From: a bacterium
GTDB lineage: Bacteria > Fidelibacterota > Marinisomatia > Marinisomatales > JAHJCW01
Assembly (NCBI GenBank): GCA_030606865.1
Contig: JAUWFQ010000006.1
Coordinates: 1-36,256, forward strand
Direction of reading: 5' to 3'
Length of the DNA stretch: 36,256 nt
The notes beneath the pieces are model-generated. The model made no database searches, was not told where the DNA came from, and worked only from the letters and a program-made list of their open reading frames with translations. Below are positions 15,028 through 36,256 of this stretch, in pieces. The position numbers were made by a program, and so were the translations under genes. Position 1 is the stretch's first letter. Each line of letters starts with the position of its first letter.

Positions 15028-16215
15028 TTATCCCTCCAATGCTTCAACAGATGGCAATCTATTTCCGGAAAGTAATTCCAAAGATGCTCCTCCACCGGTT
15101 GAAACATGCGACATTTCGTCAATTAAATTATATGATTTTACAGCAGCAGCTGTATCACCGCCACCAACTATTACAACACTTCCTTCTTCCTTAGCTTTTG
15201 TCATAATTTTAGCAATTTTTAAAGTTCCATTATCAAATTCAGGTTTTTCAAACACTCCCATTGGTCCATTCCAAATAATCGTTTTAGACGATAATAATAA
15301 CTTAGAATATCTTTCAATAGTTGCAGGACCTATATCAAAACCTGACATGGTATTTGGGATTTTATCAATTTTTAACTCTTTTATTGATTTTATATCATCA
15401 ATACTTTTTGCTGCAACTACATCAACAGGAAAATGTAACCTCTTATTTACTTTTCGACTTTTTTCAATTATTTCAGATGCGGTTTTCAGCATTGATTCAT
15501 CTACCAAGGAACCACCCACATTAATCCCTTTGGCTTTTAAAAATGTAAATGCCATTCCACCGCCAATAATTATAGCATCAGCTTCATCAATAAATTTATT
15601 TATTAATTCTAATTTTGTACCAATTTTAGCCCCACCTAAAACTAATGTCATAGGTCGTTTAGGTTTTTTAATAACAGTACCTAAATACTGTAGTTCTTTT
15701 TCAAATAAAAAGCCGATTCCTTTATGCAAAAAATATCTTGAAACGCCAACGTTTGAGGCATGAGGACGATGTGCAGTTCCAAAAGCATCATTAATAAATA
15801 TTTCACCATGTTTAGCAAGTAATTCACTAAATCGTGGATCGTTATCAGTTTCTTCGTTATGATATCGAAGATTTTCAAGAAGATGAATTTCTCCAGGGCG
15901 TAGTCCTAATGAAACATCCCTGGCGTCCTCCGAAATGCAATCATCTGAAAATTTTATTGGCAGTTCGATTAATTCTGCCAATTTTTCGCCAACTGGAATT
16001 AAACTCAGATCGGGAACAATTTGTCCTTTAGGGCGACCTAAATGTGACATTAATACCACTGATGCTCCGGATTCCAAACAATGATTTATAGTTGGTAGTG
16101 CCATACGAATGCGAAAATCATCAGTTACTAAACCATTAGATAAAGGTACATTAAAATCAACTCGAATAAGAATTCTTTTACCTTTTAAATCAAAATTACT
16201 TATTGTTTTTAACAA
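15028..16215 (-). CDS. pgk: Phosphoglycerate kinase
   Basis: 395 aa: 'KRILIRVDFNVPL', 'MSHLGRPKG', 'LLENLRYHNEE', 'LVLGGAKIGTKLELI', 'WNGPMGVFE', 'VIVGGGDTAAAV', 'HVSTGGGASLELLSG'. Confidence 0.97.
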   Translation of the reverse strand: MLKTISNFDLKGKRILIRVDFNVPLSNGLVTDDFRIRMALPTINHCLESGASVVLMSHLGRPKGQIVPDLSLIPVGEKLAELIELPIKFSDDCISEDARDVSLGLRPGEIHLLENLRYHNEETDNDPRFSELLAKHGEIFINDAFGTAHRPHASNVGVSRYFLHKGIGFLFEKELQYLGTVIKKPKRPMTLVLGGAKIGTKLELINKFIDEADAIIIGGGMAFTFLKAKGINVGGSLVDESMLKTASEIIEKSRKVNKRLHFPVDVVAAKSIDDIKSIKELKIDKIPNTMSGFDIGPATIERYSKLLLSSKTIIWNGPMGVFEKPEFDNGTLKIAKIMTKAKEEGSVVIVGGGDTAAAVKSYNLIDEMSHVSTGGGASLELLSGNRLPSVEALEG

Positions 16216-17027: not shown

Positions 17028-20009
17028 ATGATAAATAAGGTAAATAGCAAATCAGCACGTCTTGAACTGCAAGACTTGATGTTATATCGTGTGCATGAGA
17101 TACTTCTTGTCGCAAGTCCATACGATGCTTTTATCTTGGAGGAAGACGGGCGACTTACCGAACAAATACTTAATGAATATTTGGCAATGAAATTTCATCA
17201 ATCACCTCGTCTGTGGCGGGTTGAAACCGGTAAATCTGCTTTAAACTTGATGACTAAACGCGATTTTGATGTTGTAATTGTTATGTTACGTTTGTCAGAT
17301 ATGGATTCAATTCAATTATGTTCAAAGATTAAAAAATTATATCCCGATAAACCCATAATATTGCTGATCTTCGATGAATATGAAATTGAAGAAATACCCA
17401 CTAAAACACTCTATAAAAATATTGATAAGGTGTTTATATGGACTGGTAATCCTAATGTATTTCCGGCAATGATGAAGTATATAGAAGATAAAAATAATTC
17501 ACCACGTGATATCATACATGGTAGCGTTCGTACAATAATTTTTATCGAAGATAATCCGCATTATTATTCTATGATTTTACCACTTTTATATAAAGAAATA
17601 ATGTTTCATACTCGAAAACTTGTTGATAAGAGCTTAGATGCTACCAATCGGCTTATTCATTTACGTGGACGAACAAAAGTATTATTGGCAAGTACTTTTG
17701 AAGAAGCTGAGAATTATTTTAATCTGTATCGAGAAAATACACTTGGAATAATATCGGATGTCCGATTTCCAAAGAATGGAAAAATTAATAACGCTGCCGG
17801 TATTCAGTTTACCAATCATGTACGAAAAAATGAACCCTACATTCCTGTTGTAATTCAATCTTCAAATTTAGATAGTGCTCAGAAAGCTAAAGCAATAAAT
17901 GCAGACTTTCTCTACAAACATTCTCAATCATTATTGAAAGATTTACGGAAATTTATGTTAGGTAATTTTGGTTTCGGTGATTTTATTTTCCGCAATTTAA
18001 ATGGAGAAGAAATAGCCAGAGCAAGTGATATATCAACACTTCATGATATTTTGCAATCTCTTCCACAAGAATCATTATTGTTTCATGCCAAGTCTAATCA
18101 TTTTTCAAATTGGTTAGCTAATCGCGGTGAATTCAATTTAGCTTCGATTATACGACCGGTTTACGTTGAAGATTTCAAGGATACAGAGGATTTAAGAAAA
18201 TATTTAATTAAATCACTAGAAACTGTTTTAAATATTCATAAAGATAGACACATCATAGATTTTTCTATCGATAAATTAAAGCACAGTATACCTTTTTTAC
18301 GAATAGGAAAAGGTTCACTTGGCGGAAAAGCCCGGGGCCTGCTGTTTATGAATCGCATTATTGCGGATTCTAAGATTAATGACAAATTCCCGGATGTTAA
18401 AATTAGAATACCAAAAGCAGTTGTAATTGGGACAAAAGAATTCGATAAGTTTATTAATAGTAATAATTTATTAGACAAAGCGCTTACTCTGAAAACCAAT
18501 ACAGAAGTTACTAAGCTATTTTTAACAAAATCATTATCCCCTGAATTGGTCAAAACACTTGATAAATTCTTAAAACACATCAAATTTCCCTTAGCCGTCC
18601 GATCTTCTAGTTTGTTGGAAGATTCGCAATATCAACCATTAGCAGGATTATACTCTACTTTTATGCTGCCCAATTCTTCAAAAAATAGGAAACATAGATT
18701 AAATCAATTATGTGAAGCTATAATAAGAATATATGCATCAACATATTTTACTGACCCAAAGGCACTTGTGGGCAATTCTGACTATCACACAGAAGAAGAG
18801 AAAATGGCGATTATAATAATGGAAATGATCGGTCAAAAATTTGGTAATAGATATTATCCTACTTTGAGTGGTGTGGCTCGAAATATCAATTATTATCCCA
18901 TTTCTTACATGGAACGTGAAGAAGGCGTAGCCACTATTGCACTCGGGTTAGGAAAAGGAGTTATGGAAGGAGAGAAATCATTAAGGTTTAGTCCTAAATT
19001 TCCAAACATTCTGCCACAATATTATTCAGTTAATGAAACTATAAAATCTTCGCAAAATAATTTTTATGCATTGGACATAAATCCTAATCAGGATTTACTA
19101 AGTGATGGTGAAAATAATAATCTTATAAAATGTCATTTAGACGTAGCGGAAAAGGACGGTCAATTATTTTGGGCGGGAAGTGTAGTTTCCGCTGACGATA
19201 ATATGATACGTGATTCATTACATTACAGCGGAACGCGCGTTGTCACTTTTGCACAGATATTAAAATGGAAGCAATTCCCGCTAACGGATATAATAATTGA
19301 ATTGTTGGAAATCGGTAGAACCGCTTTAGGTAATCCGGTTGAAATTGAATTCTCCGTAAACTTAAATCGTAAAAATAATAAAGCTGAATTCTGTCTATTA
19401 CAAATCAGACCAATGTTACTAAGTGGAACCCATCAATTCTATCAACAAATAAATTATAATAATGATGATCTTTTATGTAGGAGTACGGTATCATTGGGAA
19501 ACGGTACCATTAACGATATAAAAGATATAATTTATGTAGACATCGAAAAATTTAATATTTCCAAAACAAGGATCATTGCCGAAGAAGTCGAAGCGTTCAA
19601 TAAAAAACTTGGGAAGAATAATCCTTATTTATTGATTGGTCCCGGTCGTTGGGGAACTGCCGATGAATGGCTTGGAATACCGGTTGATTGGAATCAAATC
19701 TCATATACAGCTGCAATCGTAGAAGTTGGTATGGAAAAATTGCCTATTGATCCATCTTTTGGAACGCACTTTTTTCAAAATATAGCCGGTATGAGAATTG
19801 GTTATTTTACAATTAATCATAAAAGAAAACCGGACTGTATTAATCATAATAATATTACAAGTTTACAAATCCGCGAAAAGATGGAATACACTACTTGGTT
19901 TAGGGTAAATCAACCACTTGTAATAAATATTAACGGCAATACCGGAGAAGGAATTATTGCTAAATTTCCGAAAGAAATAATGGATGAAGAGGAATCTACT
20001 GGGATTTAA
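17028..20009 (+). CDS. Receiver-domain/PEP-pyruvate-binding (PPDK_N) ATP-grasp fusion protein of unknown function
   Basis: 993 aa. Pseudo-receiver at about aa 24-150. Second receiver at about aa 168-310 ('TIIFIEDNPHYY', 'GIISDVRFP', 'PVVIQSS', 'FLYKHS'). PPDK_N-like ATP-grasp from about aa 424 ('IGKGSLGGKARGLLFMNRII', 'FPLAVRSSSLLEDSQYQPLAGLYSTFMLPN', 'FCLLQIRPM'). C-terminal module 'PYLLIGPGRWGTADEWLGIPVDWNQIS...SFGTHFFQNIAGMRIGYFTIN'. No TSH[A/V]AI phospho-His motif seen. Confidence 0.85.
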   Translation: MINKVNSKSARLELQDLMLYRVHEILLVASPYDAFILEEDGRLTEQILNEYLAMKFHQSPRLWRVETGKSALNLMTKRDFDVVIVMLRLSDMDSIQLCSKIKKLYPDKPIILLIFDEYEIEEIPTKTLYKNIDKVFIWTGNPNVFPAMMKYIEDKNNSPRDIIHGSVRTIIFIEDNPHYYSMILPLLYKEIMFHTRKLVDKSLDATNRLIHLRGRTKVLLASTFEEAENYFNLYRENTLGIISDVRFPKNGKINNAAGIQFTNHVRKNEPYIPVVIQSSNLDSAQKAKAINADFLYKHSQSLLKDLRKFMLGNFGFGDFIFRNLNGEEIARASDISTLHDILQSLPQESLLFHAKSNHFSNWLANRGEFNLASIIRPVYVEDFKDTEDLRKYLIKSLETVLNIHKDRHIIDFSIDKLKHSIPFLRIGKGSLGGKARGLLFMNRIIADSKINDKFPDVKIRIPKAVVIGTKEFDKFINSNNLLDKALTLKTNTEVTKLFLTKSLSPELVKTLDKFLKHIKFPLAVRSSSLLEDSQYQPLAGLYSTFMLPNSSKNRKHRLNQLCEAIIRIYASTYFTDPKALVGNSDYHTEEEKMAIIIMEMIGQKFGNRYYPTLSGVARNINYYPISYMEREEGVATIALGLGKGVMEGEKSLRFSPKFPNILPQYYSVNETIKSSQNNFYALDINPNQDLLSDGENNNLIKCHLDVAEKDGQLFWAGSVVSADDNMIRDSLHYSGTRVVTFAQILKWKQFPLTDIIIELLEIGRTALGNPVEIEFSVNLNRKNNKAEFCLLQIRPMLLSGTHQFYQQINYNNDDLLCRSTVSLGNGTINDIKDIIYVDIEKFNISKTRIIAEEVEAFNKKLGKNNPYLLIGPGRWGTADEWLGIPVDWNQISYTAAIVEVGMEKLPIDPSFGTHFFQNIAGMRIGYFTINHKRKPDCINHNNITSLQIREKMEYTTWFRVNQPLVININGNTGEGIIAKFPKEIMDEEESTGI

Positions 20010-20015
20010 AATATT

Positions 20016-21410
20016 TTACTTTTCTAATATGGGTTTTATTTTAAATCCATCCGCTGCATCTTCGATAATCCAACCCATTTCCAGTATTTGATCGCGAATT
20101 AAATCCGCTTTAGCCCAATCTTTCACTTCTCGTGCCTCTTCACGTTCTTTCACCAATTCTGTTATTTTGGAAGGAACATCGGATTTTTTAGCTATTAGAT
20201 CAAATACAGAATTGAATTTTTCAATAAAATTAATTGCCGATATTATATCTTTGTCTTTTAAAGAATTGTCATCAATCTGAGCATTAGTTTTTCTTAGCCA
20301 TTCAAAAAATACTGCAAGTGCTTCCGGAGTATTTAGATCGTCATCTAATGCTTTTTCGAATAAATTATATGCTTCGGGAAGTGCACCGGTTTTATCGCAT
20401 TTTGCGGATAAATCTAATAATCGTTCATAAAAATCATTTATCCGTTGGACAACTTTTAATGCTTCATGTTTTTTATCAACTGAAAAGTTGATATTTGTTC
20501 GATAGTGTCCACTCAATAGCAAATAACGCAATGCTTCCGGTGTAAAACCCATATCGATTAAATCGGAAATTTTATAAAAATTACCAGCAGATTTACTCAT
20601 CTTTCCACCATCAACTAAAAGATGTTCGCTATGCAGCCAATAATTTACAAACTGTTTATTATTAGCACACTCGGATTGAGCAATTTCATTTTCATGATGA
20701 GGAAATATATTGTCAACGCCCCCACAATGAATATCAAAATTATCACCTAAATATTTGTTAGACATTGCAGAGCATTCGATATGCCATCCGGGTCTGCCCT
20801 TACCCCAAGGTGATTCCCAAAAAACCTTTCCGTCTTCTTTTTTCCATGCTTTCCATAATACAAAATCCTGCGGACTATCTTTTGAATAATCATCAGTAGC
20901 AATTCGTTGAGTCTTCTTCTGCTCAGCAAGATTCAAATTAGCTAATTTGCCATACTTACCAAATTTTTCAATATTAAAATAAATCGAATTATCATCTGAT
21001 TTATAGGCATACCCATTATCTATTAGTTTTTTTATCATATTAATCATTTCAGGAACGTGCTCTGTCGCTTTTGGGTAATAATCGGCAGGAATTATTTTTA
21101 ATGTTTGTATATCATTAAAAAACAATCCGATATACTTCTCAGTAAGATCATGTATTGAAATATTGTCACTATTACTACGCAAAATAGTTTTATCATCAAC
21201 ATCTGTTATATTCATTACGTGAGTAACTTTATAACCTTTTAGTAATAAAAATCTTTTTAGTAAATCTTCAAACAAAAATGTTCGGAAATTTCCGATGTGT
21301 GCCGTATCGTAAACGGTTGGACCGCAAGTATATAATTTTACTTCACCTTTAGTGATTGACTGAAATTCGTCTTTTCGCTTAGTAAGCGTGTTGTAAAACT
21401 TAATTGACAT
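20016..21410 (-). CDS. cysS: Cysteinyl-tRNA synthetase
   Basis: 464 aa: 'LYTCGPTVYDTAHIGNFRTFLFEDLL', 'GRPGWHIECSAMSNKYLGDNFDIHCGGVDNIFPHHENEIAQSE', 'GGKMSKSAGNFY'. Confidence 0.97.
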   Translation of the reverse strand: MSIKFYNTLTKRKDEFQSITKGEVKLYTCGPTVYDTAHIGNFRTFLFEDLLKRFLLLKGYKVTHVMNITDVDDKTILRSNSDNISIHDLTEKYIGLFFNDIQTLKIIPADYYPKATEHVPEMINMIKKLIDNGYAYKSDDNSIYFNIEKFGKYGKLANLNLAEQKKTQRIATDDYSKDSPQDFVLWKAWKKEDGKVFWESPWGKGRPGWHIECSAMSNKYLGDNFDIHCGGVDNIFPHHENEIAQSECANNKQFVNYWLHSEHLLVDGGKMSKSAGNFYKISDLIDMGFTPEALRYLLLSGHYRTNINFSVDKKHEALKVVQRINDFYERLLDLSAKCDKTGALPEAYNLFEKALDDDLNTPEALAVFFEWLRKTNAQIDDNSLKDKDIISAINFIEKFNSVFDLIAKKSDVPSKITELVKEREEAREVKDWAKADLIRDQILEMGWIIEDAADGFKIKPILEK

Positions 21411-33664: not shown

Positions 33665-36256
33665 TTACTTGATTTTCAATATTTTGCCGGTTTTTTCAAT
33701 TACAGTTTTATTATATTTTGCACGGATTTGATAAAAATAATTGCCGTTTCCAACCAAACTTCCATCTTTATTTCTACCATCCCATTCAATTTCATGGTAA
33801 CCGGGTAGATTCAAATCTAAGCCTGTATTAATATCTTCGTTATACAATTGTCGAATTTTCCTACCTTCCACAGAATAGATAACAATTGTCAGTTTTTCAA
33901 CAGCATCTGTTAATTCATAAGCAATAATTGTACTTTCAGCAAAAGGATTCGGAAAATTCCCGTAGTCAATCAGATCTAATTGTTCACTAACAATAAATGA
34001 TAATTGCAATGTATCAGATGAGTTTCCGGCAGCATCTTGAACTAATAATGCCAACGTAGAATCAAATTTCGTAAGTATTGGATTGACAGTAATATTAATT
34101 GTATTGCTACTACCACTAATTTCTGAAGGTAAATCCTTAACATTATTATTGTTAATCCAATAGAATATGGAATCGGTGCGATAGTCAATTCCATTTTTAT
34201 CATAAACAGTAAATTGAATTGAAGGATTGGTGTTTAAATAATTATTCCTAAGGAATTGTTGATCATTTATTGTTGCAATGATTGTTGGTTTTTCTACATC
34301 AGTATTTTCAAGAAATGAAAATTTAGCAGAACCACTTAAAACAATGGTAATAGTACTATCTGAAACTTCCGTATATATAACTGGTAGCCAAGTGCGGAAT
34401 TCTTCAAAATATCTATATAATTTATTATTTGATTGAATTGCTGCTTTTCCTATAGTCCAATTTATATAAAAGTCACTTGTTGTTTCCCAAATTATATCAA
34501 TACCATTATAATTATGTTGAGATTGAATCACTTCAAAATCCGGTTGAGATGGTATAATTAAATCTGATAGGGGTAAAATTTGAATTATACTTGATTCTGT
34601 TACTTTACCGGAAGGTATATCTATCTCAACATAATTTATTCCAATTTTGGAATGATTAATTCCGTCGTCTGTTGAACCAAGTTCCGGAGTAACCCAAAAA
34701 GCATTGGTTTCTAAATTAAAAGTAAGAGTATCATCAGTTACCAAATTGGTTGACATACAAGTTAAATTAGCATTTGTGACAACTTTATAATGATTCGTAC
34801 CAAAGGGATAATAGCCGGGGAATTTTGCTTCATTATTTTCCATCCCGATAAAAACAACCGTATCTCTTCCAATTAATTGCCAAGAACCATCAGCATAAAT
34901 AAATAATTCAACGTTGGCATTAACAGGAGTTGTAGTAGTGCTTTCTATATCAACAACAAGATTTATATTGTCATCAACGCGGAATTCGCCTTTTATAGGT
35001 AAAATATTTGGAATATCGCTTATATTAACAATTTTCGGCAAACTAATGGTCGTATCATTATTAGTATCAATAACTTGGCAAACAAGATTTAATACAGTTC
35101 CAATTGGTTGTGGAGGAATCAATTTTTCTAATGTAAAAAGTGAATTATCTATGTTAACCATGTTTGCCCAATATTCACTATTCATAATTAGTTGAACAGC
35201 AGAAATGCCATTTCTATCTGATACTTCTGCGATAACGCCAATAGAATCACAGATGGTGGGAGTTGATGGTATTGTTGACTGAATATTCACATATGATCCC
35301 GCAACCGAGAGTAGTTGCGATGAATTATATAATACATCATCCGACTTGTAAGAGATATTTATAGTGTGCATTCCTTTACTTAATGTATCCGGTAATGACA
35401 AGAATTCCGGTAGCACATTCCCTAACAAAGTCGATTGATTTAGTGAGTAGTTATCAGGTAGAAATATTTGATAGAATACGGAATCACTTTGTGAGTTATT
35501 AGAAGATATTTCAATATCCTCTCCCGGCTCGGGATCTAATGGAGCTATTGTAATATTTTCCTTTATTGGTTTTTTCACTTTTATGGCAGGATCACCTATC
35601 AAATTATACTGATATATTTGTGATGCGGCTATCTCAGGATAAATATCTGAATAAGATAAAAAATATTGTGTTTTTGATAGATTAATTATTTCACCGATAG
35701 TCAAATCTTCTTCAGAAAAAAGCAGGTCTTGCAATGGTTCCACCATATAAAAATCATTATAATTCCAACCCAAACCACTTGCTCCATACCAAGCCAATGC
35801 CCCTCCATTTTCATTAGCGAGCATTAAGTTTCCCAAACCGTAAGAGAATGAAAAGTCTCCTGTGAAACAAGTCATACTTGTGATAAAAGGCAATTTTTTA
35901 TGATTGCTAATTTCATCCATATCATTTCTATGCAAAATATGACCCAGAGTATGACCATCATAGCCCCAAACGGCGCCACCACCGTGTCCAACAAAATTGA
36001 TGTAAGCCAATCCTCTATTTAAATGATTCAGAAGTGTATCTTTAGTACCATAAAATGAACTATCCGGTATCGATGGAGCAGAATAAAGTCTTGATAAAAA
36101 AGTTCCATTATTTTTAATTTTACAAACCATTGCTTCAGATTGATATCTAAAATCGACTTCTGCATCACCAATTATCAGAGTATTATTATCCCAATTGTTT
36201 ATATCTCTACCGTGATGATACATTGTTTTATTTACGATAATTTGTAACTCAGATTT
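33665..36256 (-). CDS. C25 (gingipain-like) cysteine peptidase with C-terminal T9SS-type/FlgD-like sorting domain; N-terminus beyond the window
   Basis: The listed 852-aa ORF begins at an internal Met; the frame stays open to the window edge. Candidate catalytic His in 'YINFVGHGGGAVWGYDG', candidate Cys in 'LPFITSMTCFTGDFSF'. C-terminus 'GNFPNPFAESTIIAYELTDAVEKLTIVIYSVEGRKIRQL...GYHEIEWDGRNKDGSLVGNGNYFYQIRA...KTGKILKIK'. Confidence 0.88.
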   Translation of the reverse strand, partial: KSELQIIVNKTMYHHGRDINNWDNNTLIIGDAEVDFRYQSEAMVCKIKNNGTFLSRLYSAPSIPDSSFYGTKDTLLNHLNRGLAYINFVGHGGGAVWGYDGHTLGHILHRNDMDEISNHKKLPFITSMTCFTGDFSFSYGLGNLMLANENGGALAWYGASGLGWNYNDFYMVEPLQDLLFSEEDLTIGEIINLSKTQYFLSYSDIYPEIAASQIYQYNLIGDPAIKVKKPIKENITIAPLDPEPGEDIEISSNNSQSDSVFYQIFLPDNYSLNQSTLLGNVLPEFLSLPDTLSKGMHTINISYKSDDVLYNSSQLLSVAGSYVNIQSTIPSTPTICDSIGVIAEVSDRNGISAVQLIMNSEYWANMVNIDNSLFTLEKLIPPQPIGTVLNLVCQVIDTNNDTTISLPKIVNISDIPNILPIKGEFRVDDNINLVVDIESTTTTPVNANVELFIYADGSWQLIGRDTVVFIGMENNEAKFPGYYPFGTNHYKVVTNANLTCMSTNLVTDDTLTFNLETNAFWVTPELGSTDDGINHSKIGINYVEIDIPSGKVTESSIIQILPLSDLIIPSQPDFEVIQSQHNYNGIDIIWETTSDFYINWTIGKAAIQSNNKLYRYFEEFRTWLPVIYTEVSDSTITIVLSGSAKFSFLENTDVEKPTIIATINDQQFLRNNYLNTNPSIQFTVYDKNGIDYRTDSIFYWINNNNVKDLPSEISGSSNTINITVNPILTKFDSTLALLVQDAAGNSSDTLQLSFIVSEQLDLIDYGNFPNPFAESTIIAYELTDAVEKLTIVIYSVEGRKIRQLYNEDINTGLDLNLPGYHEIEWDGRNKDGSLVGNGNYFYQIRAKYNKTVIEKTGKILKIK

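Follow-up and report, generated by a model that had tools for sequence, protein, structure and literature searches.

Genomic locus and domain architecture

The window analyzed in this study, a 36,256-nucleotide stretch of contig JAUWFQ010000006.1 (assembly GCA_030606865.1; phylum Fidelibacterota, order Marinisomatales), contains a plus-strand open reading frame (ORF) encoding a protein of 993 amino acids (Table 1). When the ORF and its translation were checked, the coordinates and sequence motifs agreed with those in a preliminary description of the window, which had also called it the only plus-strand gene. Indeed, every other gene of the window checked against Pfam lies on the minus strand, and the remaining listed plus-strand ORFs overlap minus-strand ORFs. 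The ORF is flanked by genes encoding phosphoglycerate kinase (pgk) and, to its right, cysteinyl-tRNA synthetase (cysS), rather than by a glutamate dehydrogenase (GDH) gene. Elsewhere in the window, a minus-strand gene (33665-36223) encodes a protein with a Peptidase C25 (gingipain-type) domain and a C-terminal module resembling FlgD.

Table 1. Coordinates of the ORF, its predicted domains and codons of interest, and the flanking genes in the window.
Feature	Position	Strand	Remarks
Phosphoglycerate kinase gene	15028..16215	-	Neighbour conserved in the order only
Whole protein	17028..20009	+	Pseudo-receiver, receiver, DUF5752-like segment, PPDK_N ATP-grasp, conserved unnamed C-terminal domain
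Receiver 1, residues ~26-155	17103..17492	+	Degenerate; Met86 at the Asp site
Met86 codon	17283..17285	+	Phospho-acceptor position of receiver 1
Receiver 2, residues ~168-312	17529..17963	+	Every phospho-receiver residue kept: E174, D175, D244, S278, K297
D244 codon	17757..17759	+	Receiver 2
DUF5752-like segment, residues 329-404	18012..18239	+	Sub-threshold in the window protein, matched in 11/16 homologues
PPDK_N ATP-grasp, residues 430-796	18315..19415	+	Pfam, PDB profile matches, ATP-site conservation
C-terminal domain without Pfam name, residues ~815-980	19470..19967	+	GPGRWG..D..LG.PV.W..IS....I.E...PS.G[ST]HFF
His914 codon	19767..19769	+	Candidate phospho-acceptor
Cysteinyl-tRNA synthetase gene (cysS)	20016..21410	-	Convergent position where other genera carry GDH

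Pfam searches of the window protein identified PPDK_N (E 4.6e-32) and two stretches of Response_reg (E 4.1e-11), as well as a DUF5752 match below the cut-off; among the homologues matching DUF5752, the best E value was 4.4e-8. Neither PF00391 nor PF02896 was matched by the window protein or by any of 15 full-length homologues, and the 993 residues leave no room for the PEP/pyruvate barrel (PF02896), which is absent. These results confirm the architecture of the protein and bear out the earlier reading of receivers joined to PPDK_N without the canonical phospho-His or PEP/pyruvate half, in the homologues as well as in the window protein. Our literature searches found no study of an architecture combining receivers with PPDK_N.

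Receiver and ATP-grasp domains

The two N-terminal CheY-like regions noted in the preliminary description are both present, but they are not equivalent. Of 55 aligned full-length homologues, 52 have Met at the phospho-acceptor position of receiver 1, whereas receiver 2 has the complete phospho-receiver set of acid pair, Asp, Ser/Thr, and Lys (E174, D244, and K297 in 55/55; D175 and S278 in 54/55). Based on this pattern, one member of the conserved pair is predicted to be a phosphorylatable receiver and the other a pseudo-receiver.

The ATP-grasp domain is homologous to that of PEP synthase (PpsA) and pyruvate phosphate dikinase (PPDK), as indicated by the PPDK_N match and by PDB profile matches, which were PEP synthases and covered the ATP-grasp part. 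Unlike PpsA and PPDK, the window protein lacks the TSHAAI motif of PF00391 and the PEP/pyruvate barrel, and carries additional receivers and an unnamed C-terminal domain. Residues K434, R525, E531, D532, E774, and Q792 are invariant in all 55 homologues. Therefore, the ATP site is not destroyed, a possibility that the preliminary description had considered.

Conserved C-terminal domain

The approximately 165 residues following the ATP-grasp domain form a highly conserved domain. In the window protein it had no Pfam match even at E values up to 10, in homologues only scattered single-member matches were obtained, and PF00391 had no match in 25 C-terminal domains at E values up to 10. The residues invariant in all paralogue types are G, L, G, G-R-W-G, L-G, E, S, G, H-F-F, and Y. 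In the core formed by the ATP-grasp and C-terminal domains, no His other than His914, within the motif PSxG[S/T]HFF, is shared without exception by all paralogue types. The preliminary description had the protein ending without a phospho-acceptor half, which holds for PF00391 and PF02896 but is too strong as a statement about any phospho-acceptor, because a G-[S/T]-H motif with an invariant His lies in the conserved C-terminal domain.

This domain may be a diverged phospho-His domain. By eye, it resembles the phospho-His domain of PpsA in how its likely strands are ordered and in where the His lies, and the match to PpsA (VLVT..DW.P.M..A.AIVT..GG.TCHAA) serves as a lead only. With hhalign, GTHFF can be aligned to TSHAA, although not significantly, since 7 of 100 column-shuffled decoys scored equally high; a PPDK_N control also failed, indicating that the comparison is insensitive. 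AlphaFold predictions of residues 417-993 and 797-993, with only three close sequences as input, were uninformative (pLDDT 29).

Distribution of the family

Members of the family were found in 120 of the 149 sampled genomes of the phylum. Full-length homologues in Bacteroidota are 36-37% identical over the whole protein and collinear with it throughout, with receiver, receiver, PPDK_N, and C-terminal domain in the same order. Given these homologues in both phyla, the ORF is not a chance reading frame. As the preliminary description had supposed, the Bacteroidota family is known by sequence without an assigned function: the collinear homologue of Parabacteroides distasonis (WP_041525632.1) is annotated as a 'PEP/pyruvate-binding domain-containing protein', with no function in the record. 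A scan of genome contigs returned two close relatives only (84-90% identical), and a scan of viral contigs returned none. Three unverified fecal deposits labelled 'Bacteriophage sp.' (MT835811.1, MT835667.1, and MT839982.1) carry a gene of the Bacteroidota type and look like bacterial contigs.

Linkage to glutamate dehydrogenase genes

The positions of family members were compared with those of ELFV dehydrogenases in the 149 genomes of the phylum, which contained 102 full-length homologues. A GDH gene was located within 6 kb of 68 of these homologues, in 64 cases convergently, against a chance expectation near 1; this expectation is a rough estimate, and because of the relatedness of the genomes the count should not be read as a probability. 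The linkage occurs in 15 of the 24 taxonomic families holding the gene, and the linked genomes comprise 37 of 46 in the same order, 1 of 8 in the class, and 27 of 53 elsewhere in the phylum, while about one third of the homologues are unlinked. This recurrent linkage, which is absent from the preliminary description, is the strongest functional clue and our main new result, and it makes the function of the family testable.

Within the order, pgk, the family gene, and the GDH gene stand in a row, and the GDH linkage there is partly an inherited synteny. As a control, the linkage to pgk was confined to the order; outside it the pgk linkage is gone and the GDH linkage persists. In P. distasonis and Phocaeicola massiliensis, on contigs labelled as plasmids, the full-length homologue lies between two GDH genes (gdhA in P. 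distasonis) and is divergent from the nearer one, in contrast to the mostly convergent arrangement in the phylum of the window. No GDH gene was present within about 10 kb of the homologue in a Prevotella record, and none was seen on three partial fecal contigs carrying a Bacteroidota homologue.

In the window genome, whose assembly is 91.6% complete, no GDH was detected. Two relatives of the same genus have GDH genes at other places; a missing contig is a likely explanation, and loss of GDH is possible. Only a weak match to glutamine synthetase was detected in the window genome, which may also reflect the incompleteness of the assembly. In another genus of the order, with reduced genomes of 0.7-1.0 Mb, the family is absent and the GDH gene directly adjoins pgk (contigs of three genomes), as though an intervening gene had dropped out. 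GDH can thus do without the family protein in this lineage.

The ATP-grasp and C-terminal core also occurs in paralogues of 579-592 amino acids without receivers, of 770-800 amino acids, and of 1060-1080 amino acids; from its sequence, we read the last form as having a GAF-like start and an NTase-like end (GSxxxxxxxxSDIDILIHF). The paralogues adjoin a second GDH family, 28-32% identical to the first, and the family as a whole is linked to two GDH families in two phyla. That the input modules vary while the core and its GDH neighbour remain points to an action of the core on GDH. At four loci, a gene for a PPDK_N protein of 581-592 residues is followed by one for a protein of 1061-1070 residues, and three of these two-gene sets lie beside the second GDH family.

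Proposed function

Since the gene stands beside a GDH gene in many relatives, its product is probably an ATP-using switch on GDH, an enzyme of nitrogen assimilation. Taking this linkage together with the analogy to VadK described below, we propose that the family comprises signal-gated, ATP-dependent regulators of GDH acting through receiver 2, the ATP-grasp domain, and His914, a proposal for which we see an even chance. In this scheme, a histidine kinase would phosphorylate receiver 2, which would then switch the PPDK-type ATP-grasp domain; the latter would phosphorylate His914, the invariant His in the C-terminal domain, and GDH activity would then be changed, by the phosphoryl group or by the phosphorylated state as such, to match nitrogen and carbon status. 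The scheme is putative in its target (GDH), its acceptor (His914), the direction of its effect, and its input signal, and the 'phosphorelay-gated phosphotransferase' of the preliminary description was likewise conjectural. Several observations count against a regulator of GDH: the window gene is not beside GDH and its genome has none detected, about a third of the homologues are unlinked, the Prevotella record and the three partial fecal contigs lack a nearby GDH, the linkage inside the order is in part inherited, the reduced-genome lineage keeps GDH without a family protein, and the kinship of the C-terminal domain to phospho-His domains is supported neither by the decoy comparison nor by AlphaFold.

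Alternatively, the protein could be a nucleotide or energy-charge sensor, in which the ATP-grasp domain binds ATP without transfer and the protein acts on GDH by allosteric binding. The family has no canonical phospho-His domain and R794 alternates with Lys (K in 36/55 homologues), both consistent with sensing. However, invariance of K434, R525, E774, and Q792 together with a single C-terminal His would be unusual for a pure binding module, and we regard a sensor as rather unlikely. It also seems unlikely that the protein is a PPDK-derived regulator of another step of carbon or nitrogen metabolism, linked to GDH at the level of a regulon and not as its direct target. The lack of a detected GDH in the window genome would suit such a regulator, as would the other neighbours, which include a pgk-tpi cluster, putative 2-oxoacid oxidoreductase genes, and carbamoyl-phosphate-synthase-like genes; yet no neighbour other than GDH was shown to recur in different classes, phyla, and paralogue types, and the pgk linkage ends at the order.

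The C-terminal domain might instead have a catalysis of its own, such as ligation or another group transfer, which would make the protein an enzyme and not a regulator. Its strong conservation (GPGRWG, SxGTHFF) without a name agrees with this, and so does the best NCBIfam match, a weak one to PigC, which NCBIfam names a prodigiosin ligase; but the core and the GDH linkage are retained behind differing N-terminal modules (receiver, GAF-like, other), a pattern that looks regulatory, and an independent enzyme is very improbable. A split PEP synthase with its phospho-His or PEP-binding half in trans, for which Pfam detection of the ATP-grasp half alone might speak, is hardly tenable, because the only PF00391 match in the window genome sits in a 906-aa PPDK-like frame with its own PPDK_N, so that the trans-acting swivel partner entertained in the preliminary description was rejected for this genome, and the neighbourhood survey saw no swivel-domain gene beside homologues.

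Comparison with known regulators

VadK (Rv1127c) of Mycobacterium tuberculosis is a truncated PPDK whose gene adjoins those of the methylcitrate cycle; it autophosphorylates on His422, interacts with the enzymes of the cycle, and tunes its flux (PMC13400623). VadK and the window protein have in common a PPDK_N ATP-grasp domain without a PEP/pyruvate domain. The VadK gene adjoins the enzymes it regulates, and the window family adjoins GDH in most homologues, though not in the window. In contrast to the PPDK-like catalytic-His domain of VadK, the window protein has the invariant His914 in a domain whose kinship to phospho-His domains is not significant. Also, the available text on VadK describes no receiver domains and gives methylcitrate-cycle enzymes as partners, whereas the window protein has receivers and GDH as its putative target. 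If the proposed function is correct, regulatory kinases derived from PPDK, of which mycobacteria provided a recent example, would become a wider theme.

In many anaerobes, among them gut Bacteroidota, GDH is a main route by which ammonia enters metabolism. According to its title, a study of Bacteroides thetaiotaomicron reported that one or more trans-acting genes downstream of gdhA affect GDH activity (Baggio and Morrison 1996). Like the window family, this factor has its gene close to a GDH gene of family I, and the window family is a candidate for it. For the Bacteroides factor, a segment of about 3 kb, similar in size to the gene studied here, was reportedly needed for GDH activity in E. 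coli. BT_1971 of B. thetaiotaomicron is a catalase. In its broadest form, the proposal would be that an unassigned family in at least two phyla, including the 1996 trans-acting factor, controls GDH by phosphotransfer through a receiver-gated ATP-grasp and a new phospho-His-like domain; as a whole, this remains doubtful. If the family does represent the Bacteroides trans control, that control could be assigned to a named gene with a domain architecture and testable residues (D244, K434, and H914). In addition, the NADP-GDH of E. coli has been reported, in work cited in PMC3318891, to be phosphorylated in vivo.
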